Below are positions 8,066-61,105 of a DNA stretch of 64,000 bases, piece by piece. Location of the stretch: the IMG/VR virus record IMGVR_UViG_3300030102_008089, positions 63,434-127,433 of that record; one strand, given 5' to 3'. Each line of letters begins with the position of its first letter. Position 1 is the stretch's first letter. The DNA comes from a virus. The notes under the pieces were generated by a model. The model did not search any database. It saw only the letters and a list, made by a program, of their open reading frames with translations, and had not been told where the DNA came from. Made by a program: the position numbers and the translations under genes.

Positions 8066-8066
8066 A

Positions 8067-9009: not shown

Positions 9010-9028
9010 AACCTGGGAGGCATTTTAA

Positions 9029-9955: not shown

Positions 9956-9964
9956 GAAAACAAA

Positions 9965-10273
9965 ATGAAAGAGTACTATAAATTTTACCTAACGTTACAC
10001 CAACATCCTAAGTGTAAATTACTACACTTCTTAGGTCAATGGTTTACAATATTCTTTGCCTCTTATGTAATATATAACTGGTATTGGTTTTTGTTCCCAG
10101 CGATACCTTTAGTAGTATATCCTTTTGCGTGGGTTGCCCACGGAGTATTTGAAAAAAACAAACCTCTAGCCTGGGAAGGTAAAAAAGATTACGGTTGGAC
10201 CACCCTTAAGGCAAAAGCTTGTGACTGGATTATGTTCTATGAAATCATTAGAGGTAGGCATCGGATATGGTAG
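9965..10273 (+). CDS. Mpo1/DUF962-like small membrane protein
   Basis: The 102-residue product resembles the DUF962/Mpo1 (yeast YGL010w) family: an N-terminal FYLTLHQHPKCKLLHFLGQW (family YxxxHxxPxNxxxHxxG) and, after two hydrophobic segments, WVAHGVFEKNKPLAWE (family H..fEkNxPAxf). In yeast Mpo1 is an iron-dependent dioxygenase acting on 2-hydroxy fatty acids, with conserved histidines like those seen here. The bacterial members are mostly uncharacterised. It sits between two SDR genes and overlaps the next by seven bases. A lipid- or lipid-linked-glycan role is possible but not demonstrated. Confidence 0.65.
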   Translation: MKEYYKFYLTLHQHPKCKLLHFLGQWFTIFFASYVIYNWYWFLFPAIPLVVYPFAWVAHGVFEKNKPLAWEGKKDYGWTTLKAKACDWIMFYEIIRGRHRIW

Positions 10274-14797: not shown

Positions 14798-14807
14798 GAA
14801 CACGAAC

Positions 14808-15638: not shown

Positions 15639-15641
15639 AAA

Positions 15642-17424: not shown

Positions 17425-18283
17425 ATGTTTGGTAACGGGACACAAAGGTTACATTGGGGCGCACTTATTTAATAAGCTAAAAGAGTTGGGTCACGATGTT
17501 AGAGGTATTGATTATAAAGATAATCCTTCGGAAGATCTGTTGGTAGTTTTGGACAATGACCCATCTTATGCCGAATTTAAACCAGAAGTAATCTTTCACA
17601 TGGCTTGTATTCCTCGTGTTGGTTATAGTATGGAATACCCTGTTGAGACTATGACAAACAATGTTCTAGCCACAACTAAGATTTTAAACTTTGCTAATAA
17701 AGTAAAAGCCAAAAGAGTAATTTACTCAGGATCCTCTTCGGTTGTTGGTGACGGTAATGGTCCCAATAGTCCTTATGGTCTACAGAAACTTATTTCGGAG
17801 ATGGAGTGTAAGCTATACGCAAAAGTTTTCGATATCGATACAGTCACTCTCAGGTATTTTAATGTTTACTCGCCTGATCAATCTGCTAGTGGTCCGTATG
17901 CCACAGCAATTTCAAACTATATGCAATATATTCGAGATGGTCGAACACCCTTTATTACTGGTGACGGTAATCAGCGTAGAGATATGGTTAATGTTAAGGA
18001 TGTTGTTGGTGCTAATATATTTGCTATGAATCACAATAAGAATTTTAATGGAAAACATTATGATGTTGGTACAGGAAGTAATATTTCTCTCAATGAAGTA
18101 AAAGATATTGTTCAAAAACACTTCCCAGGTTTAGATTTTGAATATGTAGAAGACAGGCCTGGCGACATTTTATTTACACAAGCTGATGTTAAACCATTAA
18201 AGAAACTTGGCTGGAGTGCTAAGATAGATATACGAAACGGAATTAATGAATGTTTCCAGAAAACAAAAGGAGAAATAAAATGA
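17417..18283 (+). CDS. UDP-glucose 4-epimerase-like SDR
   Basis: A 288-residue extended SDR with CLVTGHKGYIGAHLFNKLKE, FHMACIPRVGYSMEYPVETMTNN, the active-site YSGSSSVVGD, the catalytic YGLQK, and RYFNVYSPDQ, all typical of the GalE/WbpP-like group. It is slightly shorter than the usual 310-340 residues. It closes the sugar cluster; the next gene, in a different functional group, starts within its stop codon (ATGA). Probable role: epimerisation of a UDP sugar. Confidence 0.85.
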   Translation: MTRCLVTGHKGYIGAHLFNKLKELGHDVRGIDYKDNPSEDLLVVLDNDPSYAEFKPEVIFHMACIPRVGYSMEYPVETMTNNVLATTKILNFANKVKAKRVIYSGSSSVVGDGNGPNSPYGLQKLISEMECKLYAKVFDIDTVTLRYFNVYSPDQSASGPYATAISNYMQYIRDGRTPFITGDGNQRRDMVNVKDVVGANIFAMNHNKNFNGKHYDVGTGSNISLNEVKDIVQKHFPGLDFEYVEDRPGDILFTQADVKPLKKLGWSAKIDIRNGINECFQKTKGEIK

Positions 18284-18710: not shown

Positions 18711-19003
18711 CAAATACTTTATTATCAATATTTTTGTTCTTATCTGTATCGATAAACATATTGTTTTTCTGGTACATTCGAAATCTTTTGCAGTATTTAA
18801 AAACAACAAATGAGGAAACAAAAGAAGTCTTGATAAAGATATCCGATTTTAGTGAGCATTTAACAACTGTTTATAACAGGGATATTTTTTATGGTGATGC
18901 TACTCTTGAGGCTTTACTTCTGCACACTCAAGAAATGTCAGAGGAAATGGAAGCTTTTGTTAAGACAAACAATAATATTATGTTAGAGACTGAAGATGCC
19001 TAG
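18707..19003 (+). CDS. Small membrane-anchored protein with helical tail
   Basis: A 98-residue protein with one N-terminal hydrophobic segment (residues about 5-27, rich in L, F, I, S) followed by a charged, probably helical soluble part (LKTTNEETKEVLIKISDFSEHL). It lies between the zinc-ribbon and sigma-factor genes with overlaps of four and eight bases. No family recognised. Confidence 0.6.
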   Translation: MTNTLLSIFLFLSVSINILFFWYIRNLLQYLKTTNEETKEVLIKISDFSEHLTTVYNRDIFYGDATLEALLLHTQEMSEEMEAFVKTNNNIMLETEDA

Positions 19004-19685
19004 AAAAAAGAACAGCAAAAAGTATTATTTTACAGAAATAACAGAAAAGGCAATAATTGATTACTGTAATACCGATAGCCTCTCGGAGAGGTCAGATTTA
19101 TATATACAGCATATTCAGCCTGCCTTTGATGAATTAGTTGATAAAATTGTTTACACCTATAAATTTACTTCTCTTGAGAACATAGATTATCATAAAGATG
19201 ATTGTAAAATTTGGCTGACAACTATTTTAGGAAAGTTTGATCCATCAAAAAATAAAAAAGCTTTTTCGTATTTTTCAGTAGTCACTAAAAATTGGTTTAC
19301 ACATAAGGCAAAAAAACAAACAAAAAGAAATAGACGTGAAGTCAATTACGACGAAATGATCAGAGAGATAGAGATTGTTTCTACAGACCCATCAAACAAT
19401 CTTCTAGAAGAGGTTGAGGAAAGACAATTTTGGATGACACTTTTAAATGAAGTGAATACCTGGCAAAAACTTCCTTTAAAACCTAACGAGCAGAAAGTTC
19501 TTGATGCTGTTTTGACATTGATGGAGAATATTGATAAAATAGAAATCTTTAACAAAAAAGCAATTTATCTCTATATGAGAGAGATAACAGGACTTAACAC
19601 AAAGCAGATAGTCAGTTGTTTAAACAAAATGAGAGAAAGATATAGGATCTTTAAAAAGAAGTGGGATGATGGAGAAATTTATTAG
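18996..19685 (+). CDS. gp55: T4 gp55-like late transcription sigma factor
   Basis: The 229-residue protein resembles T4 gp55, the small sigma-like factor that directs host RNA polymerase to late promoters. The segment from K80 (KFDPSKNKKAFSYFSVVTKNWFTHKAKK) is the sigma region 2-like core, in which KFDP...AFSYF is shared by gp55 and minimal sigma factors. The C-terminus (ITGLNTKQIVSCLNKMRERYRIFKKK) is helical and may contain the clamp-contacting segment. Length is slightly above T4 gp55 (185 residues). The adjoining downstream tail genes are the expected late targets. Confidence 0.8.
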   Translation: MPRKKNSKKYYFTEITEKAIIDYCNTDSLSERSDLYIQHIQPAFDELVDKIVYTYKFTSLENIDYHKDDCKIWLTTILGKFDPSKNKKAFSYFSVVTKNWFTHKAKKQTKRNRREVNYDEMIREIEIVSTDPSNNLLEEVEERQFWMTLLNEVNTWQKLPLKPNEQKVLDAVLTLMENIDKIEIFNKKAIYLYMREITGLNTKQIVSCLNKMRERYRIFKKKWDDGEIY

Positions 19686-19689
19686 CTTT

Positions 19690-19703
19690 CTATTTATTGT
19701 ATG
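19690..19703 (+). promoter_or_regulatory. CTATTTA element at a gene start
   Basis: CTATTTATTGTATG covers 19690-19703 in the 15-base gap between the sigma-factor stop and the next ATG. The TATTTA is four bases from the ATG, exactly as in the identical elements at 53440 and 59717. No Shine-Dalgarno sequence is present. It may be a late promoter core producing a nearly leaderless message, or a translation-start signal. Confidence 0.5.
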
Positions 19704-19991
19704 AAAAAAGATCTAAATTCACTAATAGAACAAGCCCTTGAAAATATCAACAAGGACAGACAGGAAACAGAAGTACTCTTAGATAATTTAAAAGAGTACA
19801 TGAATGTTTCAAATGAGCGGTACTCAGATTCAGGTGCGACTGCTGCCAAATTTGTGGAAACCCTGCAAAGAAGTAACGAACAACTAGTTAAACTTGCAAC
19901 CTTAGTTTATAAAAAGGAACAGTCGTCAGGTAGCACTGGGTTGACAGATGACGACAAGGATCAGTTATTTGATATCCTGAAGGAGGAATAG
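19701..19991 (+). CDS. Small coiled-coil phage protein
   Basis: A 96-residue, charged, largely helical protein (ALENINKDRQETEVLLDNLKEYM, later LQRSNEQLVKLATLVYKK). No family recognised. It directly precedes the M23-domain tail protein (one base apart), and is likely an assembly factor or minor structural protein; this is inferred from position only. Its start is set by the CTATTTA-N4-ATG element. Confidence 0.6.
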   Translation: MKKDLNSLIEQALENINKDRQETEVLLDNLKEYMNVSNERYSDSGATAAKFVETLQRSNEQLVKLATLVYKKEQSSGSTGLTDDDKDQLFDILKEE

Positions 19992-28057: not shown

Positions 28058-28454
28058 CTTACAAGGCATATCACCAAGGATTCCATTAGTGTACGACAGT
28101 ACAGATGGGCCTTACCAACTTAATAAAACCTTAAAGCAAACCTTTAGGCAAAATTTAAAAATGCTTGTCTTGACTATGCCTGGTGAAAGAATAATGGAAC
28201 CAGACTTTGGTGTTGGTTTATATGGGTTTTTGTTTGATTCCATTACAGAGGACACTTTCACTAATATTTCTGAGAAAATAAAAGAGCAAATAGACATCTA
28301 CATACCAGCGATAAATCTTACAGAAATAGCTTTTGTTACCAGTGATGAGGATTCTACTTTGAGTTTTAATGAGGTAAGAATAAGTATAAAATATAATATT
28401 TTACCCTTTAACGGAAGTGATGAACTAATAATAACCTCGACGATGACTAATTAA
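28050..28454 (+). CDS. gp25: gp25-like baseplate wedge protein
   Basis: A 134-residue member of the GPW/gp25 family: IPLVYDSTDGPYQLNKTLKQTFRQNLKMLVLTMPGERIMEPDFGVGLYGFLFD contains the conserved 'N.k.Ll.t.pGER...p.fG..l' region including the PGER turn. In T4, gp25 is a core subunit of the baseplate wedge that initiates sheath assembly. Length equals T4 gp25 (132). It overlaps the preceding large gene by eight bases and is followed by gp6, the same neighbour order as in many myoviruses. Confidence 0.9.
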   Translation: MSNLQGISPRIPLVYDSTDGPYQLNKTLKQTFRQNLKMLVLTMPGERIMEPDFGVGLYGFLFDSITEDTFTNISEKIKEQIDIYIPAINLTEIAFVTSDEDSTLSFNEVRISIKYNILPFNGSDELIITSTMTN

Positions 28455-28470
28455 TATCGGGAAAAACAAA

Positions 28471-30267
28471 ATGGCAAAAAGACCGATAAATTATACAAGC
28501 AGAGATTTTGAGTCCATTAAGAATGACTTAGAAAATTATGCTAAACGTTACTATCCTACTACATTCAAAGATTTTAGTGAAGCTTCTTTTGGTGCTTTAA
28601 TGTTGGATTTAGTTGCATATGTGGGAGATCAGCTTTCCTTTTATGCAGATTTCCAAACAAATGAAAGTTTTCTTGACAGCGCAATTAGATATGATAGTGT
28701 TGTTAGGTTATCCGAGACCCTCGGATATAAAAATCAGGGCGCTGCTAAGTCAACTGGACAAGTAGCTATATTTATGCTTGTACCAGTATCGTCTAATTCT
28801 AGATCTCCAGATGTAAATTATTTTCCGATTTTACAAAGAGGGACAATCATCTCAGGGGAGAATGGTGCCGCCTATACTTTAACAAATGATGTTGATTTTA
28901 CAGATCCCAATAATCAAATAACGGTAGCCAGAACTGACACAACAACAGGTAACCCAACATTTTTTGCTGTAAAAGCATTCGGTCAGGTTGTTTCTGGTCG
29001 TCAATTTGAGGATCAAATAACAGTGGGTGATTATCAAAGATTTTTAACCCTGGATCTTGGTAGGAATAATGTAACAGAAGTTTTATCTGTAAAGGACTCT
29101 CAGGGTAACGAATATTTTGAGGTTGAAAACCTATCTCAGGATGTTGTCCTGAAGCAGGTTAAGAATGTAGATAGTTCAACAAGAGATGATGTTGCTTACT
29201 CTATGCGAGTTATGCCTGTGCCCAGAAGATTTACAACAAGGTTCAATGTAGATGGATCAACAACACTTCAGTTTGGTTATGGGTCTGAGGATAATCTAAC
29301 TGGTGATCTTGTCGCTGACCCCGCAGACGTTGTACTTAACGTAAACAGTAAGCCTTATGTTTCCGAGACGACTTTTGACCCTACAAACTTAATAAAGACC
29401 GACAAGTTCGGAGTTGTCCCAACAAATACAACTCTTACAGTAATTTATACAGCAAATACTTCAAATGTATCAAATGCCTCTGTTGGCAGTATTAACAATA
29501 TTTCGAGTCCAAAACTTCTTTTTAATGACAGGTCACAATTGTCTGAGGCCGTTATTGATATCATAGTAAGTTCGATTGAGGTAGATAATGAAGAGCCAAT
29601 AACTGGTGATAGTGAGCCCCTCACAGCAGATGAGATAAGGATTAGAGCACTTGGATCCTACGCTACACAAAGTCGTGCAGTGACCAGAGAAGATTATATG
29701 AACTTGGCCTATCGTATGCCTCCAAAATTTGGAAAAATCAAAAGAGCAAATGTGATAAGAGATGAAAATTCTTTTAAAAGAAATCTGAACATGTATGTTT
29801 TGTCTGAGGACTTCCTTGGTAACTTGTCAGTGCCAAACTCTGTATTGAAAGAAAATCTCAAAGTATGGTTAGACAATTATAGAATGATCAATGATACAAT
29901 TGATATTCTTGATGGGAAAGTAATAAACTTTGGTATTAAGTATGAGATAATATCTGACATAGATGCAAATCGTTTTGATTTGTTAGAGCAATGTAACGAA
30001 GCTTTGAAGAGTGATTTCCTGACAATAAAGTTCGGACTAGGAGAGTCTGTATACCTCTCAGAGGTGTATAAAATACTTAATGATGTGCCAGGAGTTACAG
30101 ATACAAGAAATGTTGAATTTTATAATCTTAATGGTGGAGTTTATAGTAACTATATTTACGACATTGATTCAAACATATCTAGAGATGGAAGGTATCTTAT
30201 TGTCCCCCCTGATTCAGCAGCAGAAATTCTTTTCCCAGATACTGATATTTTAGGAGTTATCGTGTAA
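28471..30267 (+). CDS. gp6: gp6-like baseplate wedge protein (baseplate J-like)
   Basis: A 598-residue protein resembling T4 gp6. The N-terminus MAKRPINYTSRDFESIKNDLENYAKRYYPTTFKDF is typical, followed by EASFGALMLDLVAYVGDQLSFYADFQTNESFL. The C-terminal half contains the baseplate-J-like core (DEIRIRALGSYATQSRAVTREDYMNLAYRMP). gp6 forms the iris-shaped ring that holds the wedges together and changes shape on infection. It is slightly shorter than T4 gp6 (660). Confidence 0.85.
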   Translation: MAKRPINYTSRDFESIKNDLENYAKRYYPTTFKDFSEASFGALMLDLVAYVGDQLSFYADFQTNESFLDSAIRYDSVVRLSETLGYKNQGAAKSTGQVAIFMLVPVSSNSRSPDVNYFPILQRGTIISGENGAAYTLTNDVDFTDPNNQITVARTDTTTGNPTFFAVKAFGQVVSGRQFEDQITVGDYQRFLTLDLGRNNVTEVLSVKDSQGNEYFEVENLSQDVVLKQVKNVDSSTRDDVAYSMRVMPVPRRFTTRFNVDGSTTLQFGYGSEDNLTGDLVADPADVVLNVNSKPYVSETTFDPTNLIKTDKFGVVPTNTTLTVIYTANTSNVSNASVGSINNISSPKLLFNDRSQLSEAVIDIIVSSIEVDNEEPITGDSEPLTADEIRIRALGSYATQSRAVTREDYMNLAYRMPPKFGKIKRANVIRDENSFKRNLNMYVLSEDFLGNLSVPNSVLKENLKVWLDNYRMINDTIDILDGKVINFGIKYEIISDIDANRFDLLEQCNEALKSDFLTIKFGLGESVYLSEVYKILNDVPGVTDTRNVEFYNLNGGVYSNYIYDIDSNISRDGRYLIVPPDSAAEILFPDTDILGVIV

Positions 30268-35472: not shown

Positions 35473-35494
35473 CTTGCAAGAGACTAATTAATAA

Positions 35495-38400
35495 ATGGCG
35501 AAAAGAATAATCATAAATTCGGCTCCCCCAAAGCCATCAAAAAGAATAATTGGCGGCTCGAATCAGAGGAGTCAATCGAGACTAACTTTGCAAGGGTCAT
35601 ATTCTTGGAAGTATAATCATGCCCCAGAAGGTCTAGATGAGAGCAAAAATTTATCTTGGTGGCGTGAAGAGGCAAATCGATACGAGGCACCTCTATCCTC
35701 ATCAGGGGAGATATTATACGGAAGGCAGGCTGTCAAAAGAGAACTAAAAAGAGACACGGATAAAAGAAAATTATATAATTTTGATATACAGCTTGACAAT
35801 TCAATAAAGGGTGGCAGCAATCAACCTATTAACAAAAAATATCACCTTGGCAACAGAACACTCACGGCTTTTGATAGCGAAATAAATGTTTCTGAGGACA
35901 TATACCCTAATACAAAAAAGAGAGTGTCGTTTGGAGTAACTTTAGACGGGAAAACATATACTAGCGAACAAACAACCCCTTTTAGTCTGTTTAGTTCCAG
36001 TGTATCGTCAGGGTACCAGGCAAAGTTGACTGCTGATGGGTTTGGCGGCGTTGATTTTGCTAATTTACATGATGATAAAATACAAACCTACCAAGGAGAG
36101 GTGCCAGCCCAAGGACCTTTTACCGAAAGGTTTGTGGGTGGTATTCTTGCCAGGCATAATGCCCCACTTCGAGCAACTGAGCGCCAAGAATCATTTAATA
36201 TTGTACTGTCCCCATCCTCTGTAGCAGAAGTTAATATAGAGGTTAACAATGGAGCAGATCCTTTCATTGACCTAAATGGAAGAACTTTGACTTTAACTCT
36301 TGGGGGAGTGTCTTATTCGGCAACGTTTAACCCTGGTGTTAATATCGCAGATTCAACAAAAACAGTTTTGGGCATTGCCGACGCAATTGATGCCGACGGT
36401 GCCGCCGAAGCAATATCCAGAAGTTTAAACCTAGCGGCCTCTGGAGACGGGTTGCCAGTTGTGGCAAGTTATGGCTTTACTAATTTTGTTAATGTCAAAG
36501 GCACGTTTGTAGGAACGAGAGACAACGGTACAGCTTTTGGGGGAACCTCTATTGATGCTGGAAGGGTTACACCAACACCAACATTTAGTGGCGGTGCAAA
36601 CTCAGTAAGAGCTATAAATCAAACCGATGTTGGAAGTCCACAAGGAAAATACTTAAGAGGGCTTGGAGCAAAAGCACCAGTAAATATTGAAAATATAAAA
36701 ACATTATTTACTTCCGATAGTGTGCGTGTGGTTGGAAACTATATCAGGAACTATGAAGTGGTCCAAGGTTCTAATCGTGCCGCTACTAATATGGATTTAG
36801 CATATAATCGAAACAATTATAATAATACTGCCCCTTCAGCGTTTATAACAACCCCAGCTATGCGGACTTTATTAGCAACAGGATCAGCAGATTATGCCGC
36901 ACCTCGTCAGATCAGTACAAGAAAAACTAACCAGACAATTATTGTAAATCGTTTTTCTGCCCCAGGCGACAAGGTGGACTCTAAACAACAATTTCGTGAT
37001 GTAACATCAGATCAATCATCTCCAAATAATGCTCTACCATTCCGTAATATACCAGTTCGAAAGCCGTATATTAGCAAGCTGTCTACTCATACAGCTTTTG
37101 GCGGATATGAACTAGGAAGTACAACTGTCGCAGCGGTTTATAAAACACAGAGAAACAGAACCCAAAGAGTTCAGGCTTCTGGTAGTGTATTTATTACGGG
37201 TTCGGTTTTTGACGATTATTTTGTAACAAGGCCAATACCAGCAGGAGATAGCACTCAGTGGTTTTTTTCGCTATCAGGTTCAGACACGGATACATACAGT
37301 GATTATGTTAGGGCAAACTCAAGATATCCAGAACAAATTTCTTTTTCCAAATTAAACATTGGATCATTTAATGCTGGATTGGCGGGACTGACAGGTTCAG
37401 ATGGTAATGCAACTTATATTTGGGCCTCCTCGCCATTTGTTGCTCCCTGGAGCCAGACCAGAAACTCATACAAAAGCTCAGCAATATTTTTAAGAAAAAA
37501 CAATATTTACGAACTTGACCCAGAAATAAAAACAGGGAAAGACACAACTTCTCTTGCAGACTCTACAAAAACAAGACAATTTGTTGATCAAGTTGGTAAT
37601 ACAGTAACAAATTTCTACTCTCAGCAGTTTAGAGAACCACCAATCACATCAAGATATAAGCCACTGGTTCACCAAATAGAAACTTTTATTGGCTCGCCAT
37701 CTGAGACAACTAGTAACAAAATTACTTTAAGTTTAGAATATAGTTATGGAAACACTCTTATGGGGTTTGCCAATCGTGAACTTAACAGGAGAGTTGCAGG
37801 GGATATTAAATTTAATCATAACAAGATCAAACGACCCTATGAAGTATTGCGAGAACAATTAAATAGTGACTCATCACGCTCTCTAAATGGCGTGAACGTG
37901 ATAAAAATGTTTGCGTACAATGAGACTATATGGCCTAAAGAAGTGTACACTTATTTATCTGGAAGCCGTGCGAGATTATCTTTTACTAACTCTTACTGGA
38001 GAGATGACGCTATAATCCAACCAGTAACAACTTTTTATACAAACTATAACACACTGTTTTATGTTACATCTATAGAGACAAGAGATAATAGACAAACTCC
38101 ACGCTTAACCACTCCGTTTACAACATCTCAAGGATATGGGGTTACCTTAGCGGATCAATTACCTTACAACCCATTGGACTCATCAACCCCCGTCCCAGAA
38201 GGCCCAGGTAGGGCGTCAATTTGGCCACTGGACTCATATTTGTGGTCTGATTTATCAGACACTTACGCAGGTTCTACCTACGAGACAGGATCGCTTTCTG
38301 CCTCGGTAATATTGGCAGGACAAGCATCAACGCCTTGTGGCGAACTGATGATGACAAATTTTGGAACAATTGATGATCGAATCACTAGCACAGACGCATC

Positions 38401-49477: not shown

Positions 49478-49484
49478 CTATTTA
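49478..49484 (+). promoter_or_regulatory. CTATTTA candidate promoter
   Basis: The CTATTTA at 49478-49484 sits in a 75-base gap, one of the longest in the tail module, followed by a leader with AGAGGAAA as ribosome site before the ATG at 49529. It matches the repeated element at 19690, 53444 and 59721. Here the spacing allows a normal leader. Confidence 0.45.
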
Positions 49485-49528
49485 TTAAGAACTTATAAAA
49501 TCAAGCGAGTTCAACAAGAGGAAACGTT

Positions 49529-50563
49529 ATGGCTTTTTTAGATAACAGTGGCGACATTATACTTGACGCTGTTCTGACGGATGAAGGACGCCGCCGACTG
49601 GCACTAGGAGACGGCAGTTTTAGAATTACAAAATTTGCTCTCGGAGATGACGAGATAGATTATTCTTTGTATGAAGTCTCACCTGCTAGCGGGTCTGGGT
49701 ATGAAGATACTAGAATTTTGCAATTACCTATTTTTGAGGCTTTCACTAATAACACGACATCACTCAAAAATCGTTTGCTAAGTTATGATGACAATAGTTT
49801 ACTATACTTGCCAGTTGTTAAGCTAAATAGTAAATTGTCTCCAACCGCAACAGATTCAACAGGCCCTGTAGGTGGATATTACGTTTCAGTAGATTCTACA
49901 ACGACAAAACAAATAGAAAGTCTAAACAGTACAGCAGCAACATCTAATGGGTATCGTTTCGCCCAAGCAGGGGCTTCAATTGACCAGTCAAGATTGATTT
50001 TTGACCAAGGCTTAGATACTGCTGATTTATCACTGGGCTATCTTGCTGGGGGCAGCAGTACTTCTCAAGAACAAGCCCTTTTTGAAACAGCTTATTTGAT
50101 TGAGGTTGACAACAGATTAATAGCACTGACAACGCCTGCGGATTTATCCGTAGCCCAGCCATCATTTATTGATGATGATAATGTAGCTACATACTATTTT
50201 GCGCTTGGAAAAGACAGTTCTTATTTTGCAAAACAAAGCGGCACAAAATTCGGTGGTGCGGCAGAGCCAGCTTTTGAAATTACTACAGATGTTAACGGAA
50301 GTAGAATACAAAATTCCCAAATAGTACCAGCCGATAATCAAGGTCGTATTGGGTCTAGATTGATTTTTGGTTTACGATCATCGCTAAACCTACAAACAAG
50401 CCAAAATTTGTTTACAAAACTAGGTGGTACTCAAACAATAACCGTTGGAAGCGAAGTTGGTGGAACTTCTTTTTCTGTAATTAACACAGTGGTTAGAATA
50501 ACTGGCTTTAACACAGGATATAGAGTAGAGGTACCCCTTAAACTACTCAAATATACCTCATAG
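49529..50563 (+). CDS. Tail fibre-type structural protein with shared N-terminal domain
   Basis: A 344-residue protein starting with MAFLDNSGDIILDAVLTDEGRRRLALGDGSFRITKFALGDDEIDY, a start I recall from structural proteins of marine T4-like phages. The N-terminal domain is shared with the protein encoded at 41974. The remainder is beta-rich, ending in a compact domain (TVGSEVGGTSFSVINTVVRITGFNTGYRVEVPLKLL). An AGAGGAAA ribosome site is present. Likely part of a tail-fibre or collar network. Confidence 0.65.
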   Translation: MAFLDNSGDIILDAVLTDEGRRRLALGDGSFRITKFALGDDEIDYSLYEVSPASGSGYEDTRILQLPIFEAFTNNTTSLKNRLLSYDDNSLLYLPVVKLNSKLSPTATDSTGPVGGYYVSVDSTTTKQIESLNSTAATSNGYRFAQAGASIDQSRLIFDQGLDTADLSLGYLAGGSSTSQEQALFETAYLIEVDNRLIALTTPADLSVAQPSFIDDDNVATYYFALGKDSSYFAKQSGTKFGGAAEPAFEITTDVNGSRIQNSQIVPADNQGRIGSRLIFGLRSSLNLQTSQNLFTKLGGTQTITVGSEVGGTSFSVINTVVRITGFNTGYRVEVPLKLLKYTS

Positions 50564-53439: not shown

Positions 53440-53457
53440 CAAACTATTTACTTTATG
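53440..53457 (+). repeat. 18-base exact repeat (copy 1) at a gene start, candidate promoter
   Basis: The sequence CAAACTATTTACTTTATG at 53440-53457 recurs exactly at 59717-59734. In both places its last three bases are the ATG of the next gene, and TATTTA lies four bases before that ATG. A third, slightly different copy is at 19690. No Shine-Dalgarno site is present, so the element may be a late promoter core for a leaderless message. Confidence 0.65.
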
Positions 53458-54069
53458 CTTTTAACTCAAGACATAATCCGCAGACTAATCAAGGAACAGA
53501 TACAAGACTCTTTGAATCTTAAAGAAGAGGTTTCCCTTAGTGGGAAGGATTTAGAAGAAAAGATAAATAGCATCGTCAGTTCTTTGGGTAATATCAGACA
53601 ATCTCAGCAGGTTCAAATTCTTCAGAAGGTAGAAGCCAAGATTAAAGAAGCCCCCGCTAATCGTAAAGACATAGACGAAGCGTGCGGTGACATGCAATCA
53701 ATTGATATGGGTGTTGATCATCACGATGATGACCACGAGGGCAGTATGGCAAAGCGGCAAATGTTTAAGACGGCAGAGTATGCTGCCGAAATTTTTGACA
53801 ACATCCACGATGATGATGAGTTCCCAGCGTGGATCCAAAGCAAAATGACGAAGATAGCAGATTACATTGGTGTGGTCAAGCACTACCTTGAGTATGACCA
53901 CGTTATGGGCGAAGCGAAACTTACTAAGAAACAAATTAAAGGTCGTGATGATGATGCTAAAGAAATAATGAAAAGCACCATTAAGCAATATGGAAAAGAG
54001 GAAGGCACAGACGCTGCCTACGCTATTGCTACTAATATACAGAAAGAAAAAGCAAAAAAGAAAAAGTGA
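53455..54069 (+). CDS. Leader-tagged protein 1 (candidate capsid-targeted)
   Basis: A 204-residue protein with an N-terminal leader MLLTQDIIRRLIKEQIQDS in which I12-K13-E14 matches the register of the other tagged proteins. After it come charged helices, a His/Asp-rich stretch (MGVDHHDDDHEGSM), and the C-terminal motif KQYGKEEGTDAAYAIATNIQKEKAKKKK. The ATG at 53455 is fixed by the 18-base element. It is the first of the leader-tagged series and couples to the next by a GTGA overlap. Function unknown. Confidence 0.6.
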   Translation: MLLTQDIIRRLIKEQIQDSLNLKEEVSLSGKDLEEKINSIVSSLGNIRQSQQVQILQKVEAKIKEAPANRKDIDEACGDMQSIDMGVDHHDDDHEGSMAKRQMFKTAEYAAEIFDNIHDDDEFPAWIQSKMTKIADYIGVVKHYLEYDHVMGEAKLTKKQIKGRDDDAKEIMKSTIKQYGKEEGTDAAYAIATNIQKEKAKKKK

Positions 54070-54656
54070 AAATCACAGTTGAAAAAATCAGGGAACTGAT
54101 TAAAGAAGAAACACAGAGAGTTCTTAACGAACAAGGTGTTTATACAACAACTGGAAAGAGTTTTACTCGCCCGAACTACAGTGCTTCCAAAGAATTTAAG
54201 ATAAAGTATCCAAACGTTGCTTATGATATACCAAACGTTGGGATAGAAAAGCTTAAAAAAGCATATTTAAGCCATTATGTCAATATGGGTGTTCTGGAAA
54301 AAATGTTAGCGATGGCCAAAAAAACAGAGAAACCAGAGGTAATTAAAAGATATCAAGATCTTTATGATGAGGCAGAGATGCACCTTAAAGAATTGCAGGC
54401 TCACCCTCGTTGGGATGACTTAAAAAAGTATTTTGAAGAAAATCCTAAGGAAATGCAAGCCGAAGAAAGCCTAAGAAAGACTTATTACAACCAGACGGGA
54501 TCGTACAGCCTGTGGAAAAAAATGAGCAAGCCTGGAGGATACTACAAGGGGATGTATACAGATATTATTGATATGTCCAAAGTAAGGTCAGCAGGGAATG
54601 CCATTGATGCCGCTGTGCGGAAGTCCAGGCGTGAAGATGGCAAATATTTTAGTTGA
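54066..54656 (+). CDS. Leader-tagged protein 2
   Basis: A 196-residue protein starting at GTG (54066), with leader MKITVEKIRELIKEETQRV (I12-K13-E14). The body is mostly helical and charged, with no recognised fold: VGIEKLKKAYLSHYVNMGVLEKMLAMAKKTEK and later MHLKELQAHPRWDDLKKYFEE. It ends with DAAVRKSRREDGKYFS. Stop-start overlap (GTGA) with the preceding tagged gene. A putative internal virion protein by the leader hypothesis. Confidence 0.6.
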   Translation: MKITVEKIRELIKEETQRVLNEQGVYTTTGKSFTRPNYSASKEFKIKYPNVAYDIPNVGIEKLKKAYLSHYVNMGVLEKMLAMAKKTEKPEVIKRYQDLYDEAEMHLKELQAHPRWDDLKKYFEENPKEMQAEESLRKTYYNQTGSYSLWKKMSKPGGYYKGMYTDIIDMSKVRSAGNAIDAAVRKSRREDGKYFS

Positions 54657-54669
54657 TATAAAAAATTAC

Positions 54670-54700
54670 TTGACCCACTAAAAACCTATGGTATTATAAT
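54670..54700 (+). promoter_or_regulatory. Sigma-70-like promoter before the HAD gene
   Basis: TTGACC (54670-54675) is followed by TATTATAAT (54692-54700); a -10 of TATTAT gives 16-base spacing and TATAAT gives 19. An AAGGGAGGTG ribosome site follows at 54705-54714. This is the best host-type promoter in the window and marks the start of the more GC-rich genes. Confidence 0.6.
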
Positions 54701-54719
54701 GTTGAAGGGAGGTGCTCCT

Positions 54720-55361
54720 GTGAAGTACCAAGTCTTTAGCGATATGGATGGTGTCCTTGTCAACTTTGAGGGCGGCGTTCTAGAATATATGAACGAGAAG
54801 TTCCAAGAGATTGCAAACAATCAGGAAAAGTACAAAGCCCTGCGTGGCTCTGGTAGCCCTGATTACAAGCTCTACAAGCTTGCCCGAGCCGCAGCCAGAG
54901 AACTTGGCGGCTGGGACGTAGAAATTAACAAGTGGCACATTGCTCGCTCCGACATGGAGGGCAGCCTTGGACGCAACAAGCGGATCCGAGACTTGATGTA
55001 TCGGATGGTTGAGAACAATGCTTCTCTCTGGGCAAACCTCGGCTGGGAGCGTGGCGGAAAAGAACTTTGGGATTACATTAAAGACATCCCAGGGTTGGAG
55101 ATTTTGTCGGCTCCAATGGCTGAAGGGTCTAAACTTGGCAAGAAAATCTGGGTCCAAAGAGAATTAGGTCTGCCGATAGAAAAAGTTAACTTGTCTGACA
55201 GTAAAGAACCCTACGGAGTTTGGAACGGAAAACAAGGACTTCTGATTGACGACCGTGACAAATATGTCAACGAGTTCCGTGAGGGTGGCGGCATCGCTAT
55301 TAAACATAATCCAGATGACGTGGATAATACGATTAGGCAACTCAAAGAACTGGGACTCTGA
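54720..55361 (+). CDS. HAD-family 5'(3')-nucleotidase-like phosphatase
   Basis: A 213-residue HAD-superfamily protein. Motif I is FSDMDGVLVNFEGG (nucleophile aspartate plus the following D), and the late acidic motif is GLLIDDRDKYVNEF followed by GGGIAIKHN, as in 5'(3')-deoxyribonucleotidases (NT5C type). The GTG at 54720 is preferred to the ATG at 54699 because a perfect ribosome site (AAGGGAGGTG, 54705-54714) lies between them and the conserved strand starts right after. Likely role: nucleotide pool control or dephosphorylation during phage DNA synthesis. Confidence 0.75.
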   Translation: MKYQVFSDMDGVLVNFEGGVLEYMNEKFQEIANNQEKYKALRGSGSPDYKLYKLARAAARELGGWDVEINKWHIARSDMEGSLGRNKRIRDLMYRMVENNASLWANLGWERGGKELWDYIKDIPGLEILSAPMAEGSKLGKKIWVQRELGLPIEKVNLSDSKEPYGVWNGKQGLLIDDRDKYVNEFREGGGIAIKHNPDDVDNTIRQLKELGL

Positions 55362-56309
55362 TTGTTCAACGATCCTAACTCTGTAAAGAAAAAGAAAATC
55401 CTTGATGAAATCCTTGGCAGACCATACCGCCAAGGCAAGGAATACCTTTACGACTCACGATGTTGCGGGCACCACAAAAAGAAACTGTCAGTCAACTTTG
55501 ACAAGAATGTTGCCAAGTGTTGGACATGCGACTGGCGTACCAAAAATTTACGACGCCTTGTCAGGCGATGGGGCGATATAAGTCATATCCATAGATGGAA
55601 GGATTTTGACGCCGATATTGAGCTAGGCGACCTAGGCAACCTGTTTGCCAAGGAAGAGGATATAAAACAGCGAATTGACCTTCCAAATGAGTTTCAAACA
55701 CTAACTGGTCGTTCCCACCCTGCCTCGGCAAGAGTTCCCCTAAACTATTTACGCAAACGTGCCGTTGAACAGAAAGACGTCCTTTATTGGAAGATTGGCT
55801 ACTGCGCTTCTGGGGAATACAAAAATAGAATTATTCTCCCATCATTTGACGAAGACGGCTACTGTAACTTTTTCACGTCTCGTACATATGACCCCAACGT
55901 TTGGCCTCCGTATTTGAACGGACCAGGGAACAAAGACATTATCTTCAATGAACTACTGATTGACTGGGAACGAGAGGTCACTCTGGTTGAGGGTGTCTTT
56001 GATGCGATCGTTGCTGGCGAGAATAGTATTCCGCTATTGGGATCGACCCTGCGAGAGGACAGCCGACTTTTCAGGAAGATTGTAAAAAACGATACACCAG
56101 TATTGCTGGGTCTGGATGCTGACGCCCACAAAAAAGCCATGAAACTTGTGAAGGCTTTGCTGGCGTATGACGTAGAAGTTAGACTTATGGATACGTCGGG
56201 CTACAAAGACATTGGAGAGATGCCGCAAGAAGTTTTTGACCAGCGAAAAGAAGATGCGCCTTTTATTGATTCTGATGCCTATTTAATGAGGATTGCTTTA
56301 TTGGCATGA
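55362..56309 (+). CDS. gp61: DnaG-type primase (T4 gp61-like)
   Basis: A 315-residue primase starting at TTG directly after the HAD stop. It has an N-terminal zinc-binding domain (SRCCGHHKKKLSVN...AKCWTCDW, Cys/His ligands) and a TOPRIM domain: VTLVEGVFDAIVAG holds the catalytic glutamate and LLGLDADAHKKAM the DxD. Length is close to T4 gp61 (342). It makes RNA primers for lagging-strand synthesis with a replicative helicase; none is encoded in the window. An alternative start within the first 15 residues cannot be excluded. Confidence 0.85.
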   Translation: MFNDPNSVKKKKILDEILGRPYRQGKEYLYDSRCCGHHKKKLSVNFDKNVAKCWTCDWRTKNLRRLVRRWGDISHIHRWKDFDADIELGDLGNLFAKEEDIKQRIDLPNEFQTLTGRSHPASARVPLNYLRKRAVEQKDVLYWKIGYCASGEYKNRIILPSFDEDGYCNFFTSRTYDPNVWPPYLNGPGNKDIIFNELLIDWEREVTLVEGVFDAIVAGENSIPLLGSTLREDSRLFRKIVKNDTPVLLGLDADAHKKAMKLVKALLAYDVEVRLMDTSGYKDIGEMPQEVFDQRKEDAPFIDSDAYLMRIALLA

Positions 56310-56318
56310 GGGCTCAGA

Positions 56319-57185
56319 ATGAAAATAACAATTTCTCAACTTCGGGGTATGGTAGAAGAAGCCTTACTTGATGAGAAGAAAAAAAAGCGAAAGAAAAAAA
56401 AGAAGAAGAAAGGCGGCAAAAAAGACGCCTGCTATCATAAGGTAAAAGCTCGTTATGATGTTTGGCCTTCTGCTTACGCTTCTGGTGCCCTCGTAAAATG
56501 CCGAAAGGTCGGCGCTGCCAATTGGGGCAACAAAAGTAAAAAAGAAGGAATCGAGCAAGATCCTCTTCGTGATATGATTCGTGAGACCATATCAGAATTG
56601 ACTGAAAAAAAAAGTAATCCTCGCATCCCAAGAAAAAAGGGACAAAAGAAAAAGTCAAAAAAGCACAGCGACCTCTACACCGATGAGGATCCAAAAGGCA
56701 CAATCCACGGACTGAAGTTTGCCACCGAAGCAGACGCAAAGAAAAGTGTGTCCAAAATCCGCAACTCCAGCCGCTCGCACGCTCATAAGGTTCAAGCCGC
56801 TGTTGCCATGGAGCAACGAGCAAAAGCAGCGGGTAAAGCCTCCGCTGCCGCAGTTTACAGAAAATATATTAACTCCGTAAAAAAAGATGAGAACCTTGAA
56901 GAAGAACCTATTGAGGAAAAGAAAAGAAAACTGACCAAGAAGCCCTCGTCAGAAACGAGCTTACGAGACTGGTTCAAACGCAAAGGAGCTAAAGGTAGCA
57001 AGAGTGGTTGGGTAGATTGTAATACCTGTCGCAAAGATAAAAAGACAGGCAGAAAAAAATGCAGTGCTTGTGGTCGCTCTAGCGGCGAAAAACGAGCAAA
57101 GTATCCGAAGTGCCGACCCACACCAGCGGCGTGTAGTAAGCGAGGCAACTATGGCAAAAAATCAAAGGCAGGTAAAAAAGGATGA
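56319..57185 (+). CDS. Leader-tagged protein 3, lysine-rich, multidomain
   Basis: A 288-residue, very basic protein with leader MKITISQLRGMVEEALLDE (V12-E13-E14), then a long lysine run (about residues 22-36). Three short modules follow: CYHKVKARYDVWPSAYASGALVKCRKV; a helical TEADAKKSVSKIRNSSRSHAHK region with AAGKASAAAVYRKYINSVKK; and a C-terminal Cys-rich region with DWFKRKGAKGSKSGWVDC and CRPTPAACSKRGNYGKKSKAG. The first and last modules look like conserved small domains of large DNA viruses (DUF5872-like for the last, from memory). It could bind DNA or be packaged with it. Confidence 0.6.
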   Translation: MKITISQLRGMVEEALLDEKKKKRKKKKKKKGGKKDACYHKVKARYDVWPSAYASGALVKCRKVGAANWGNKSKKEGIEQDPLRDMIRETISELTEKKSNPRIPRKKGQKKKSKKHSDLYTDEDPKGTIHGLKFATEADAKKSVSKIRNSSRSHAHKVQAAVAMEQRAKAAGKASAAAVYRKYINSVKKDENLEEEPIEEKKRKLTKKPSSETSLRDWFKRKGAKGSKSGWVDCNTCRKDKKTGRKKCSACGRSSGEKRAKYPKCRPTPAACSKRGNYGKKSKAGKKG

Positions 57186-57967
57186 AAAAATTACTAACAG
57201 AATGGCGAAAGTTTCTAAAGGAAGTTGATTATGAGGCAAGCGAACTCGCAATACAGATTCGACAAGAGAACCAAAAGTTGCGAGATAGAATTGAAGCCGC
57301 AATGAAAAGAGAAGGTGTTGACTGGATTTTAGAAGATATACCAGAGTGGTCTTTGATTGCTACCCCTACTTCAGAAGATGGGAGACAGCAGATGATTGAC
57401 GATATGGATGAAATTCTAGCAACCTACGGAAGTCCATCTGTCAAAGAACTTCTTATGACAAATGAGAGTGTAGAAAAAGAGATCTCAAAAACGCTGTCCG
57501 ACGAGGGCGGCGCTTCTGGCTTAGATCCATTACACAAGGCTGCTAAAAAGGTAGAAAAAAACATTTCCAAAAAAGAAGTAGAAGACATTATCAAGAAAAT
57601 GGATAATGTTACTAAACATCGTGATGGTGATTATATCAAAGAAGAGTATTACCACATCAGTGATGCTACCTATGATGATGGCACACTTGTTGAAGATGTA
57701 GAATTCTGGGACGACGTAGTTGTTGAAGCAGAATACCGTGGACGCAAAGTCAAGCTTAACAAGCCAACTCGTGGAGATGTAAAAAAATTTAAGGTCTATG
57801 TCAAAGACCCAAAAACTGGAAACGTCAAGAAGGTAAACTTTGGCGACAAGAATATGAGAATTAAAAAGTCCAACCCAAAGCGTCGCAAGTCTTTCAGGGC
57901 TCGACATAACTGTGATAACCCAGGACCAAAAACAAAGGCTCGCTATTGGTCTTGTAGGAAGTGGTAA
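57182..57967 (+). CDS. Leader-tagged protein 4 with C-terminal RHxC...YWSC domain
   Basis: A 261-residue protein with leader MKKLLTEWRKFLKEVDYEA (L12-K13-E14). Residues about 30-110 look helical (IQIRQENQKLRDRIEAAMKREGVDW). The C-terminal 60 residues are basic: GRKVKLNKPTRGDVKKFKVY, then KSNPKRRKSFRARHNCDNP ending in KARYWSCRKW, a Cys/His/Trp motif I recall as a recurrent C-terminal module in marine phage proteins. ATGA overlap with the preceding tagged gene and taATG overlap with the next. Function unknown. Confidence 0.6.
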   Translation: MKKLLTEWRKFLKEVDYEASELAIQIRQENQKLRDRIEAAMKREGVDWILEDIPEWSLIATPTSEDGRQQMIDDMDEILATYGSPSVKELLMTNESVEKEISKTLSDEGGASGLDPLHKAAKKVEKNISKKEVEDIIKKMDNVTKHRDGDYIKEEYYHISDATYDDGTLVEDVEFWDDVVVEAEYRGRKVKLNKPTRGDVKKFKVYVKDPKTGNVKKVNFGDKNMRIKKSNPKRRKSFRARHNCDNPGPKTKARYWSCRKW

Positions 57968-58431
57968 TGAAAAAGCTGATGACCGAATGGAGAAAATTTC
58001 TCCAAGAAGAGATGAAGGTTGTCATCAGTGCGGCAAAAGAATTTGTTTGCCCGCCAGCAACCCAAGACCTAAAACTCAACACAAAGAACCGTGATGCCTC
58101 CATCAAGGCAGAACACATTCAGTACGGACCTCTCAACGTTGACGAGCCAGGTGATTACTGGAAAGACATAGCCGAGTACTGGAACACGACCGAGGCAGCC
58201 GCCAAAAAGTCCAACTGCGGAAATTGTACTGCTTTTGATATTTCTCCACGAATGGACGCTTGTATGCCAGGCGTGACCTCTGATAACGATGGCAGACTTG
58301 GTTACTGCTGGATGCATCATTTCAAGTGTCACTCGGCTCGCTCTTGCCGCACTTGGGCAAAAGGCGGACCAATCAAAGAAGACAGCGTATCTTACGAGTG
58401 GCAGGAAAGAAACGACTTTGGGACAACCTAA
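57967..58431 (+). CDS. Leader-tagged protein 5, cysteine-rich (possible metal-binding)
   Basis: A 154-residue protein with leader MKKLMTEWRKFLQEEMKVV (L12-Q13-E14). The C-terminal half carries a cysteine pattern (KSNCGNCTAFD, MDACMPG, GYCWMHHFKCHSARSCRTW) resembling a small Fe-S or zinc domain such as the HiPIP-like proteins. The ATG at 57967 is chosen because it overlaps the previous stop and starts the leader; an in-frame GTG two codons earlier is also possible. No function known. Confidence 0.6.
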   Translation: MKKLMTEWRKFLQEEMKVVISAAKEFVCPPATQDLKLNTKNRDASIKAEHIQYGPLNVDEPGDYWKDIAEYWNTTEAAAKKSNCGNCTAFDISPRMDACMPGVTSDNDGRLGYCWMHHFKCHSARSCRTWAKGGPIKEDSVSYEWQERNDFGTT

Positions 58432-58880
58432 TGAAAAAGTTGATGACCGAGTGGCGGAAGTACATAAAAGAAGAGAAGATGGCAGACCTTGATGCCGAGC
58501 AAGCATATAGCACAAAAGTAAAAGGTGTCAACGTAATTATTAATCTAAAAGACACAGACCTTCAAGCAACCAAGCACAGCAAGGAACGACAGTTTCGCCA
58601 CGACGAAAAGATTTCCAACCGAGCAATCATCCAAGCGGTTGAGTTAGCCATCGGAAAAATCATTCAGGACTATGCCAACGGCGAACTTGGCAACGACGAG
58701 CCTTTCCATATTCGCATGGTCGGCAGAGGAAAGGTCCCAGCCCTCAACGTCATCGCAGTTTTAGATATGCGAAAAGGACCAGACACAATAAAAGTAATTA
58801 CAGTAATGCGTAAAGACGATTTTAAGACTGACAGTTTTGCTGGCGGACAACAAAAAACTTACACGGTACAATCACGATGA
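58431..58880 (+). CDS. Leader-tagged protein 6, possible RelE/PBECR-like nuclease
   Basis: A 149-residue protein with leader MKKLMTEWRKYIKEEKMAD (I12-K13-E14). The body resembles phage-associated RelE/barnase-like polymorphic-toxin domains in outline: TKHSKERQFRHDEKISN near the start, a central helix (AVELAIGKIIQDYANG), then two beta strands (ALNVIAVLDMRKGPDTIKVITVMRKDDF). This is a weak pattern match. The ATG at 58431 is chosen since it starts the leader and overlaps the previous stop; earlier in-frame codons lie inside the neighbour. Confidence 0.55.
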   Translation: MKKLMTEWRKYIKEEKMADLDAEQAYSTKVKGVNVIINLKDTDLQATKHSKERQFRHDEKISNRAIIQAVELAIGKIIQDYANGELGNDEPFHIRMVGRGKVPALNVIAVLDMRKGPDTIKVITVMRKDDFKTDSFAGGQQKTYTVQSR

Positions 58881-59701
58881 AGTTGATTATGGAAAACTGG
58901 CGAGGCTTTCTCCAAGAGGGAAGATACGAAGCGGCCACAACAGAACTGACCCGCAAGGTAATACCTTATGTCAAATATATTATTGACGAGATACTGCCTG
59001 GGCTCATTGAAAATCCGCCACGCAAGGACTTGACAGTCGTAACACCCAAAAGATATGAAAGGGGTAAAGGACTCCCAAAAGAACTTGAAGAAAAGATGTA
59101 TTCTGTTTCGTTCAAATTTTATATTGATAAAAAACTAGCAGAAGAAACAGGGGACAAATTCCAAATCGGCGGGGCTTTTATGGGAGACCCAGAAATCCCA
59201 AGCGATAGTTATATGGTAGTCAATAGTTATTTGGATACTGGCTTCAGCGAACAAGATCTTAACGCTTATCTTGGCGAACTCAAAGCAGTCACTATCCACG
59301 AGATTCAACACGGCGGCCAAACCGATGATGTGTTGAAAACCTCTGACCCCCGAACTTACAACCCTATGGGCGGAATCAACTGGAACTATAACAACCTTGA
59401 TGGTATTCGTGGATATTATGCTTCGGAATCTGAAACAGATTCTTACACCAAAGAAGTTTATAAAAGAGCAAAGTATTATAAAATACCTTACACAGAAGCG
59501 TTAGATATGCGTATCAAACAATTCTTTGATATGTTTAAGCGCCGCCGAGACAAGATGAACGCCGAAGACAAGAGGGAAACTCCTGGCGAGTTTAGGGTCC
59601 AGTACACAGAAGAAGAACTCAAAGACTTCTTTTACAACGAACTGCGTGATAAATATATTGCGTTTGCTAAAACAAAATATCCAGAGGCTGTGGGAATATA
59701 A
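58877..59701 (+). CDS. Leader-tagged protein 7, HExxH metalloprotease-like
   Basis: A 274-residue protein with leader MKLIMENWRGFLQEGRYEA (L12-Q13-E14). A zinc-protease motif HEIQH is at residues 141-145 in AVTIHEIQHGGQTDD. The flanking sequence NSYLDTGFSEQDLNAYLGEL precedes it, and Glu-rich GYYASESETDSYTKE follows at a distance fitting a third ligand. If the leader targets it to the capsid, it could be an internal virion protease delivered with DNA. The start overlaps the preceding stop (ATGA). No family name assigned. Confidence 0.65.
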   Translation: MKLIMENWRGFLQEGRYEAATTELTRKVIPYVKYIIDEILPGLIENPPRKDLTVVTPKRYERGKGLPKELEEKMYSVSFKFYIDKKLAEETGDKFQIGGAFMGDPEIPSDSYMVVNSYLDTGFSEQDLNAYLGELKAVTIHEIQHGGQTDDVLKTSDPRTYNPMGGINWNYNNLDGIRGYYASESETDSYTKEVYKRAKYYKIPYTEALDMRIKQFFDMFKRRRDKMNAEDKRETPGEFRVQYTEEELKDFFYNELRDKYIAFAKTKYPEAVGI

Positions 59702-59716
59702 CAAATACTCCTTTCG

Positions 59717-59734
59717 CAAACTATTTACTTTATG
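59717..59734 (+). repeat. 18-base exact repeat (copy 2) at a gene start, candidate promoter
   Basis: CAAACTATTTACTTTATG here is identical to 53440-53457, including position relative to the ATG (59732). The surrounding bases differ, so the identity is limited to the element itself. It separates the leader-tagged group from the following membrane-protein genes. Confidence 0.65.
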
Positions 59735-60202
59735 AGTAGGGAAAGGGATTTCTACAGAAAAATGCAAGAAGACGCTCGTAATTCTATGTACGAGCCAGAG
59801 ATTATTGATGTCTCCCCACCCGCCAAGAAAGTAAAAACCAACTACCTTTCAGCAGTCGTTTGGACTTCGGTTGTCGCAACTGTGGTCTGTACGATTTTTA
59901 TGGGTCTCCTTTTATATGTTGTGAATGAGAGCCAGATTGAAGAGCGACTTGAAACGGCTGCGAGCCACGCTCTTTACAATTTGGAAAGCGTCATCAAGCA
60001 GCAGAACATAGAGATACAGCAATTGAAGGCAGAAAATAAAAAGATATATAATCACATAAAGTTTTGGACTCCGATAGAACACAGGTTTCCACCAGGCGTA
60101 AAAGAAACCTGGGAGATACCGTTCTACGGAACACCAAAATATGAACGCCGCTCTTTCCAATTATCACAGGAACCAGAACTATGCTTACCTTTCTTGGAAT
60201 AA
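59732..60202 (+). CDS. Single-pass membrane protein with coiled-coil domain
   Basis: A 156-residue protein with an N-terminal charged tail, one transmembrane segment (about residues 38-63, VVWTSVVATVVCTIFMGLLLYVV), and a helical region (ERLETAASHALYNLESVIKQQNIEIQQLKAENKKIY) that looks like a coiled coil. The C-terminus is a short soluble part. It starts from the repeated CTATTTA element and overlaps the M50 protease gene by 22 bases, suggesting it works with or regulates that protease. Unknown family; a spanin-like role is possible but not shown. Confidence 0.65.
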   Translation: MSRERDFYRKMQEDARNSMYEPEIIDVSPPAKKVKTNYLSAVVWTSVVATVVCTIFMGLLLYVVNESQIEERLETAASHALYNLESVIKQQNIEIQQLKAENKKIYNHIKFWTPIEHRFPPGVKETWEIPFYGTPKYERRSFQLSQEPELCLPFLE

Positions 60203-60984
60203 TCGTTTTAGTAATCTTTATCCACGAACTGGGACATTATGTTGCAGCCCGTGCTATGGGTGTCGCTGTTGATAGTTTTTCAATAGGGTTCGGCAAAGTC
60301 CTTCTTAAAAAGAAGCTGTGGGGAACTGAATGGCGACTATCGCTTCTACCACTCGGGGGATATATCAAACCTCGGGGAGAAGACGATTATTATAATGTAA
60401 AACAAGATCCGCAATCGTTTTGGTCAGCAGGACCGTGGAAGCGTGCCTTTATTGCGGTAATGGGACCAGTATTTAATTTATTGTTACCCTGGCCATTATA
60501 TTTTTTACTCCTGGTAGGACAGCCGTACCCTGATGTTGTGGTTCCCGAAGGGGCACAGGCTCACCGTATTGGTGTAGTAGAGGCGGCAGGCTATGCTCAC
60601 AAGGTGTCGCTAAAAATGTATAGCAGTATTTGGGAAGCCGTGACAATGCCCCGCCAAGAGCCAATGAGTGTCAAAGAAATAGGAGGACCTGTCGCTGTTT
60701 ATGAGTTTACCGAGTCCGCAAGAAAGCGGAGCGTAGAAACAGGAGACTGGGGATTTCTCATCGACTGGATTGCCTTTTTCTCCATCAATCTCGGTGTAAT
60801 CAATCTATTGCCAATCCCAGTGCTTGATGGTGGGCATATTGTAATGTCTACGGTGGAGGGGGTAAGACGTAAAAATTTGGAAGCAAAGACAAGGAACGTA
60901 CTAAATATAGTTGGTGCGGTTCTAGTGCTTGGGCTGATGGTTGTTGCAATAACTTCTGACGTGCTACGCCTTACTGGCATCTAG
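60181..60984 (+). CDS. Site-2 (M50/RseP-like) intramembrane protease
   Basis: A 267-residue membrane protease. The zinc motif HELGH is at residues 15-19 in the first transmembrane helix (VIFIHELGHYVAARAMGV), followed by FSIGFGKVLLKKKLWGTEWRLSLLPLGGYI, the standard RseP/SpoIVFB start. The second active-site motif NLLPIPVLDGGH is at about 208-219 (D216). It is much shorter than bacterial RseP (about 450): the PDZ region is nearly absent. Site-2 proteases cut membrane-anchored regulators such as anti-sigma factors. Here a neighbouring membrane protein with a cytoplasmic part is a possible partner. Both metal-binding motifs are intact. Confidence 0.85.
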   Translation: MLTFLGIIVLVIFIHELGHYVAARAMGVAVDSFSIGFGKVLLKKKLWGTEWRLSLLPLGGYIKPRGEDDYYNVKQDPQSFWSAGPWKRAFIAVMGPVFNLLLPWPLYFLLLVGQPYPDVVVPEGAQAHRIGVVEAAGYAHKVSLKMYSSIWEAVTMPRQEPMSVKEIGGPVAVYEFTESARKRSVETGDWGFLIDWIAFFSINLGVINLLPIPVLDGGHIVMSTVEGVRRKNLEAKTRNVLNIVGAVLVLGLMVVAITSDVLRLTGI

Positions 60985-60987: not shown

Positions 60988-60994
60988 CTATTTA
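60988..60994 (+). promoter_or_regulatory. CTATTTA candidate promoter before the Cys-rich mini-gene
   Basis: CTATTTA at 60988-60994 lies four bases after the protease stop in a short gap. A GTGGGGG ribosome-like site follows at 61003-61009 before the ATG at 61019. It matches the repeated element, here with a normal leader. Confidence 0.45.
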
Positions 60995-61018
60995 GATAAA
61001 CCCGTGGGGGAATAAATA

Positions 61019-61105
61019 ATGAAAAACGAAAATAAATGCGAGTGTTGTTGTTGCTGTTCTTGTTGTTGTAGTTGCGAGTGTGGTAAAGACGGCTGCTGCG
61101 GCTAA
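61019..61105 (+). CDS. 28-residue cysteine-rich mini-protein (13 Cys)
   Basis: The frame starts at ATG 61019 and stops at TAA 61103-61105. The peptide begins MKNENKCECCCCCSCCCSCE and ends GKDGCCG; 13 of 28 residues are cysteine, in runs of five, three and two. A GTGGGGG ribosome-like site and a CTATTTA element stand before it. It has metallothionein-like composition, and the cysteine codons mix TGT and TGC (not a simple trinucleotide repeat), which argues for selection. It might buffer metals or redox state, or be an artefact of low-complexity DNA; the promoter and ribosome site favour a real gene. Confidence 0.6.
   Translation: MKNENKCECCCCCSCCCSCECGKDGCCG

Follow-up and report, generated by a model that had tools for sequence, protein, structure and literature searches.

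A CTANTTA box upstream of virion genes very probably forms the core of late promoters in a phage group encoding a gp55-like sigma factor

The 18-base repeat and the box sites of the window

The window analysed here is a stretch of 64,000 nucleotides that corresponds to positions 63434–127433 of the virus record G000 (127,433 bp); unless stated otherwise, coordinates are those of the window. The box sites, the ORFs behind them and the gp55-like gene lie on the plus strand. It contains two exact copies of the 18-mer CAAACTATTTACTTTATG, at 53440–53457 and 59717–59734, and in both the last three bases are the start codon of an ORF, an ATG. This is what the original prediction had reported, and a search of the whole 127,433-bp record found the sequence nowhere else; with up to three mismatches, 0.21 occurrences are expected by chance in the window. 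In the first copy the heptamer CTATTTA (the box, 53444–53450) is followed by a 4-nt spacer and the ATG at 53455–53457, in the second the box at 59721–59727 is followed by a 4-nt spacer and the ATG at 59732–59734. Box and spacing are kept in seven orthologues of the first site and in ten of the second. The 53455 orthologues differ in their spacer letters (ttgc, agac, tgac, taac) at a constant box and a constant 4-nt distance; the 59732 orthologues mostly retain a cttt spacer. Since only box, spacing and ATG are conserved and the other letters are not, the full 18-base identity of the two sites is probably a coincidence on top of a common box. A TTGACA hexamer overlaps the 53444 site by happenstance; host-type TTGACA promoters at the box sites were considered and rejected, as neither spacing nor letters fit.

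The ORF that begins at the first of these ATGs (53455–54069, 204 aa, MLLTQDIIRRLIKEQ...) lacks a Shine-Dalgarno site, its orthologues share the same ATG start, and its product is possibly an internal head protein. Between 53455 and 63050 many small ORFs carry one of two N-terminal tags, either of the MKITKSELQQIIKEE type (ORFs 54066, 56319, 61118, 62037, 62278 and 62664) or of the MKKLxTEWRKFLxEE type (ORFs 57182, 57967 and 58877); both types look like the capsid-targeting sequences of internal head proteins. The ORF at the second copy (59732–60202, 156 aa), which starts at the close ATG, has a membrane-like segment and a coiled coil and lies upstream of a gene for a phage M50 site-2 protease (60181–60984; PF02163, E 2.6e-59) whose conservation extends to some two dozen IMG/VR contigs.

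A third version of the arrangement, CTATTTATTGTATG at 19690–19703, has its CTATTTA at 19690–19696 and the same 4-nt spacer before the ATG at 19701 of a 96-aa ORF (19701–19991). Motif search placed this site, as well as the boxes at 49478 and 60988, where they had been predicted. The lack of a ribosome site at three close starts was likewise confirmed: no Shine-Dalgarno sequence precedes 19701, 53455 or 59732, since the box occupies its place. At all three sites (boxes at 19690, 53444 and 59721), box and exact 4-base gap to the ATG are kept across diverged relatives.

Two further close sites carry the variant CTAATTA. The box at 28037–28043 stands 6 nt before the ATG at 28050 (28037–28052) of a 134-aa ORF orthologous to the gp25-type baseplate wedge protein, with spacers of 4, 6 or 7 nt among the orthologues, and the box at 35484–35490, from the upstream-box scan of the record, stands 4 nt before the ATG at 35495 (35484–35497) of a 2151-aa ORF. 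The remaining boxes are more distant. A CTAATTA at 28447–28453 precedes the leadered ATG at 28471 (28447–28473) of a gp6-type baseplate wedge protein gene. The CTATTTA at 49478–49484, retrieved by motif search and gene-start scan, is followed by a leader with a ribosome site and the ATG at 49529 (49478–49531). The box at 60988–60994 precedes, with a leader, the ATG at 61019 (60988–61021) and is kept after the M50 gene, again with a leader, in all 12 relatives of at least 72% identity. Directly behind it lies a 28-aa cysteine-rich ORF (61019–61105, MKNENKCECCCCCSCCCSCECGKDGCCG) with a G-rich ribosome site. The weakest case is the CTATTTA at 56279–56285, which lies within the end of the upstream ORF, before the ATG at 56319 (56279–56321), and may be a chance occurrence.

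In the whole record, boxes 4, 6 or 7 bases from the start codon are found at seven genes, namely 19701, 28050, 35495, 53455 and 59732 of the window and 38241 and 54055 in record coordinates. The leaderless-type arrangement thus recurs as originally proposed, at seven genes rather than three. The gene caller used here missed or shifted the starts at 53455, 59732 and 28050. In the relatives, the boxed genes include those for tail sheath, tail tube, head-tail adaptor and baseplate wedge, and baseplate genes are boxed in the window; a few boxed genes (record 4717 and 7291) do not belong to the virion block, which counts against the late-promoter reading. Rfam and tRNA searches returned nothing in the window.

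Enrichment and consensus of the box

Over both strands of the whole window, CTATTTA is not over-represented (15 observed, 17.2 expected), so that any claim for it rests on strand and position. The genome scan against shuffled sequence, which had been set beforehand as a test of the prediction, gave a positive result: within 45 nt upstream and on the coding strand, CTATTTA precedes 8 of the 154 starts of the record, compared with 0.72 after dinucleotide shuffling (never more than 4 in 300 rounds). With the fourth base left free, CTANTTA precedes 14 starts, compared with 2.2 in shuffles (maximum 8). The notion of a recurring CTATTTA element therefore holds for the regions upstream of genes and not for the window at large, and the consensus is better given as CTANTTA.

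Relatives were collected as 151 IMG/VR loci, 80 via the PrkA-like kinase and 71 via the gp55-like protein, and more were added via the 53455 ORF and the M50 protease. In an unbiased count over 1955 de-duplicated upstream regions of the 151 loci, CTATTTA was the top over-represented 7-mer (79 versus 16.5 expected) and CTACTTA the second. A substitution scan showed that all bases of CTANTTA except the fourth are required, and among 60 rearrangements of its own letters CTANTTA ranked first by a wide margin. No informative -35-like hexamer was present upstream of 73 aligned boxes. Free motif fitting was discarded because it drifted to the Shine-Dalgarno signal. A chance repeat in an AT-rich genome would account for the window-wide count; given that the positional, strand and comparative tests all contradict it, and that the footprint across relatives already does so, we regard this explanation as practically negligible.

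The box was predicted to differ from the T4 consensus, and it does: TATAAATA was not enriched in the relatives, with 10 upstream occurrences on the gene strand and 35 on the other. The same kind of scan applied to T4 recovered the T4 box 14–28 nt before the ATG. In Flavobacterium phage immuto, whose gp55 is 30% identical, seven upstream boxes were found versus one on the other strand, too small a number and intermingled with a longer repeat. In Microcystis phage Mel-JY01 there is a single box. No published description of a CTANTTA box was found in the open-access literature.

The gp55-like factor and the box behind its gene

The gene adjoining the 19690 box (18996–19685, 229 aa) encodes the gp55-like factor on which the prediction relied. 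It matches the late sigma family phrog_234, as do 9 of 10 members of the gp55-like family, and profile comparison with the T4 gp55 family gave E 6e-7 over the N-terminal half, including the part corresponding to sigma region 2. Seven of 14 control genomes likewise contain matches to the phrog_234 profile, as is to be expected of sigma-like proteins. An AlphaFold2 model of moderate confidence had weak best structural matches, which were sigma factors. The C-terminal domain is conserved and confidently helical; a fold search with it gave no clear structural relative, and by inspection it lacks the LDFLY-type end of T4 gp55. A search of the PDB sequences with the gp55 profile yielded nothing useful, and phrog_12791 retrieved no second late sigma factor. 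The gp45 sliding clamp (PF02916) was not found in G000, which is probably a fragment. Two gp55 relatives lie in bacterial MAG contigs that indicate no clear host. Upstream of the gp55-like gene, five nucleotide-sugar epimerase genes (phrog_540) are gathered in one segment (8034–18283).

Among the 40 relatives listed, CTANTTA is kept downstream of the gp55-like gene in 34; the ATG follows at exactly 4 nt in about 21 and lies farther away, mostly with a ribosome site, in about 12. The six relatives without a box at this place also have the most divergent gp55 proteins. This loss bears on the question of whether a host sigma factor reads the box in place of the gp55-like protein. The -10 elements of sigma-70 promoters have a conserved final T, whereas TANTTA ends in A and is accompanied by no -35 word, and ordinary TTGACA-N17-TAATAT promoters exist elsewhere in the same record. 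Host recognition would fit the size and place of the box, which are those of a -10 element, and some hosts make many leaderless mRNAs (PMC4633059); in view of the letters of the box and of its loss where gp55 is most divergent, we consider it quite unlikely. Recognition by RNA polymerase carrying the gp55-like factor is, judged from the sequence data, the likely alternative.

Box-to-start distance, ribosome sites and terminators

The distances from box to start codon are bimodal, with one class at 4, 6 and 7 nt, another at 14 nt or more, and the range of 8–13 nt almost empty. Ribosome sites never occur in the 4/6/7-nt class and are nearly always present at 14 nt or more, so that a close box and a ribosome site are mutually exclusive, as the -10 element and the ribosome site are in leaderless genes. 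With the genes of G000 included, the close class has 36 members from 11 gene families, and several families alternate between the close and the distant form from one orthologue to another. All 30 close starts in the comparison are ATG (1707 of 1955 starts overall), in keeping with the restriction of leaderless genes to ATG or GTG. Counted independently of gene calls and with orthologues included, an ATG follows at exactly 4 nt in 65 of 696 distinct plus-strand boxes, compared with 5 of 324 on the minus strand. In the distant class, ribosome sites start mostly from base 6 after the box and in a few cases from bases 3–5, which indirectly limits the transcript start of those putative promoters to about base 5–7 after the box.

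Among gaps of 60–250 nt, 19 of the 37 with a box have an intrinsic terminator that follows the upstream gene and precedes the box, compared with 20 of the 255 without a box. At L008:18566 and L038:1492, close boxes directly follow such a terminator, and there is no room for a leader with a ribosome site. The terminators argue against CTANTTA acting at the RNA level, whether for processing or as a signal in translation, even though a box that is strand-specific and near start codons could suit such a role. Moreover, at short distance the box replaces the ribosome site and does not accompany it, and elsewhere it lies 14–45 nt away, like the T4 box; a function in the mRNA is thus very unlikely.

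The box could also be a promoter that serves only later genes. In that case, ribosomes that have finished the upstream gene would re-initiate at the close ATGs on read-through transcripts. At 53455 and 19701, no more than about 15 nt separate the ATG from the preceding stop codon, and with T4-like spacing a transcript would begin at or past the G of the close ATG. Read-through is, however, difficult to reconcile with the close boxes directly behind terminators, nor would re-initiation explain a 4-nt spacing that is conserved while its letters vary, the confinement of the close class to ATG, or the ribosome sites of same-gene orthologues with a more distant ATG. We therefore hold re-initiation to be unlikely.

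CTANTTA as a probable late-promoter core

Enrichment, footprint across relatives, strand bias, upstream terminators and the exclusion of ribosome sites at short distance support the original proposal of a promoter core with nearly leaderless messages. Very probably, CTANTTA forms the core of the late promoters in this phage group. In the mechanism that we propose, it would act as a -10-type element for which a -35 element is not needed, read by RNA polymerase carrying the gp55-like sigma factor (18996–19685), with transcription beginning about 5–7 bases past the box; late timing and the exact transcript start are inferred. A box at least 14 bases upstream would then give an mRNA with a short leader and a ribosome site, whereas a box 4, 6 or 7 bases upstream would place the 5' end on the AUG or no more than a few bases from it, and leaderless translation of the close-box genes appears likely. 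Taken as a whole, we consider this mechanism, including the leaderless mRNAs, probable.

T4 late promoters (TATAAATA) work with gp55, gp33 and gp45, and the first base of the box lies at -13 (PMC2988020). The promoters proposed here share with them a single AT-rich box at the -10 place without a -35 element, the position before virion genes, a distance to the ATG of mostly 14–28 nt and the presence of a gp55 homologue, here a distant one that matches over sigma region 2 only. They differ in that the box is CTANTTA and not the 8-bp TATAAATA, so that the definition of the T4 box does not apply, in the class of boxes 4–7 nt from the ATG, of which there was none in the T4 region tested, and in a factor without the T4-like C-terminal end, in a probably incomplete record in which no clamp was found. 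The missing clamp and C-terminal end count against the proposed mechanism. The chief difficulty is the start spacing, which speaks against a leaderless 4-nt class: T4-like spacing would put the start 7–8 bases after CTANTTA, and the 4-nt class needs a start 2–3 bases closer. CTANTTA could be read by a gp55 lineage that has diverged and that may do without a clamp contact of the T4 type, which would create a regular leaderless late class; orthologues would then change form as the ATG shifts while the promoter stays in place. This extension is tentative, and we would put it at somewhat below even chances.

Other gp55-type phages (Aeh1, KVP40, 44RR and S-PM2) likewise have boxes near or departing from that of T4, and in Aeromonas phage Aeh1 a/gC replaces TA at -13/-12; those boxes retain the downstream AAATA part, whereas the core here is TANTTA (PMC2988020). 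Leaderless genes are known from mycobacteria, and phages such as lambda and P2 are cited in the same paper; there, as here, the -10 element adjoins the start codon, a ribosome site is missing, the two signals exclude each other and an ATG is needed at the 5' end (PMC4633059). In contrast to those genes, the leaderless state is deduced here from sequence alone, and it concerns a set of gp55-type late promoters found repeatedly, which in some orthologues give way to leadered forms. For a large group of uncultured phages, the box supplies a late-promoter code that can be put to the test, in which a gp55-type factor goes with a box other than that of T4. If true, the leaderless class would be an unusual and evolutionarily switchable way of expressing late phage genes, and the close-box class would correct start-codon calls that presume a ribosome site.

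Further features outside the window

Promoters of the form TTGACA-N17-TAATATAC are repeated in the first half of the record, at positions 21157, 28010, 29174, 45034 and 45803 of G000, and are probably early promoters read by host sigma-70. In the same half, genes for a PrkA-type serine kinase and for a SpoVR-type protein are clustered (G000 36.8–42.7 kb; L004, L005). Copies of the kinase, 74–88% identical, occur in many phage contigs, and ahead of the SpoVR-type gene lies a box, 7 nt from the ATG.
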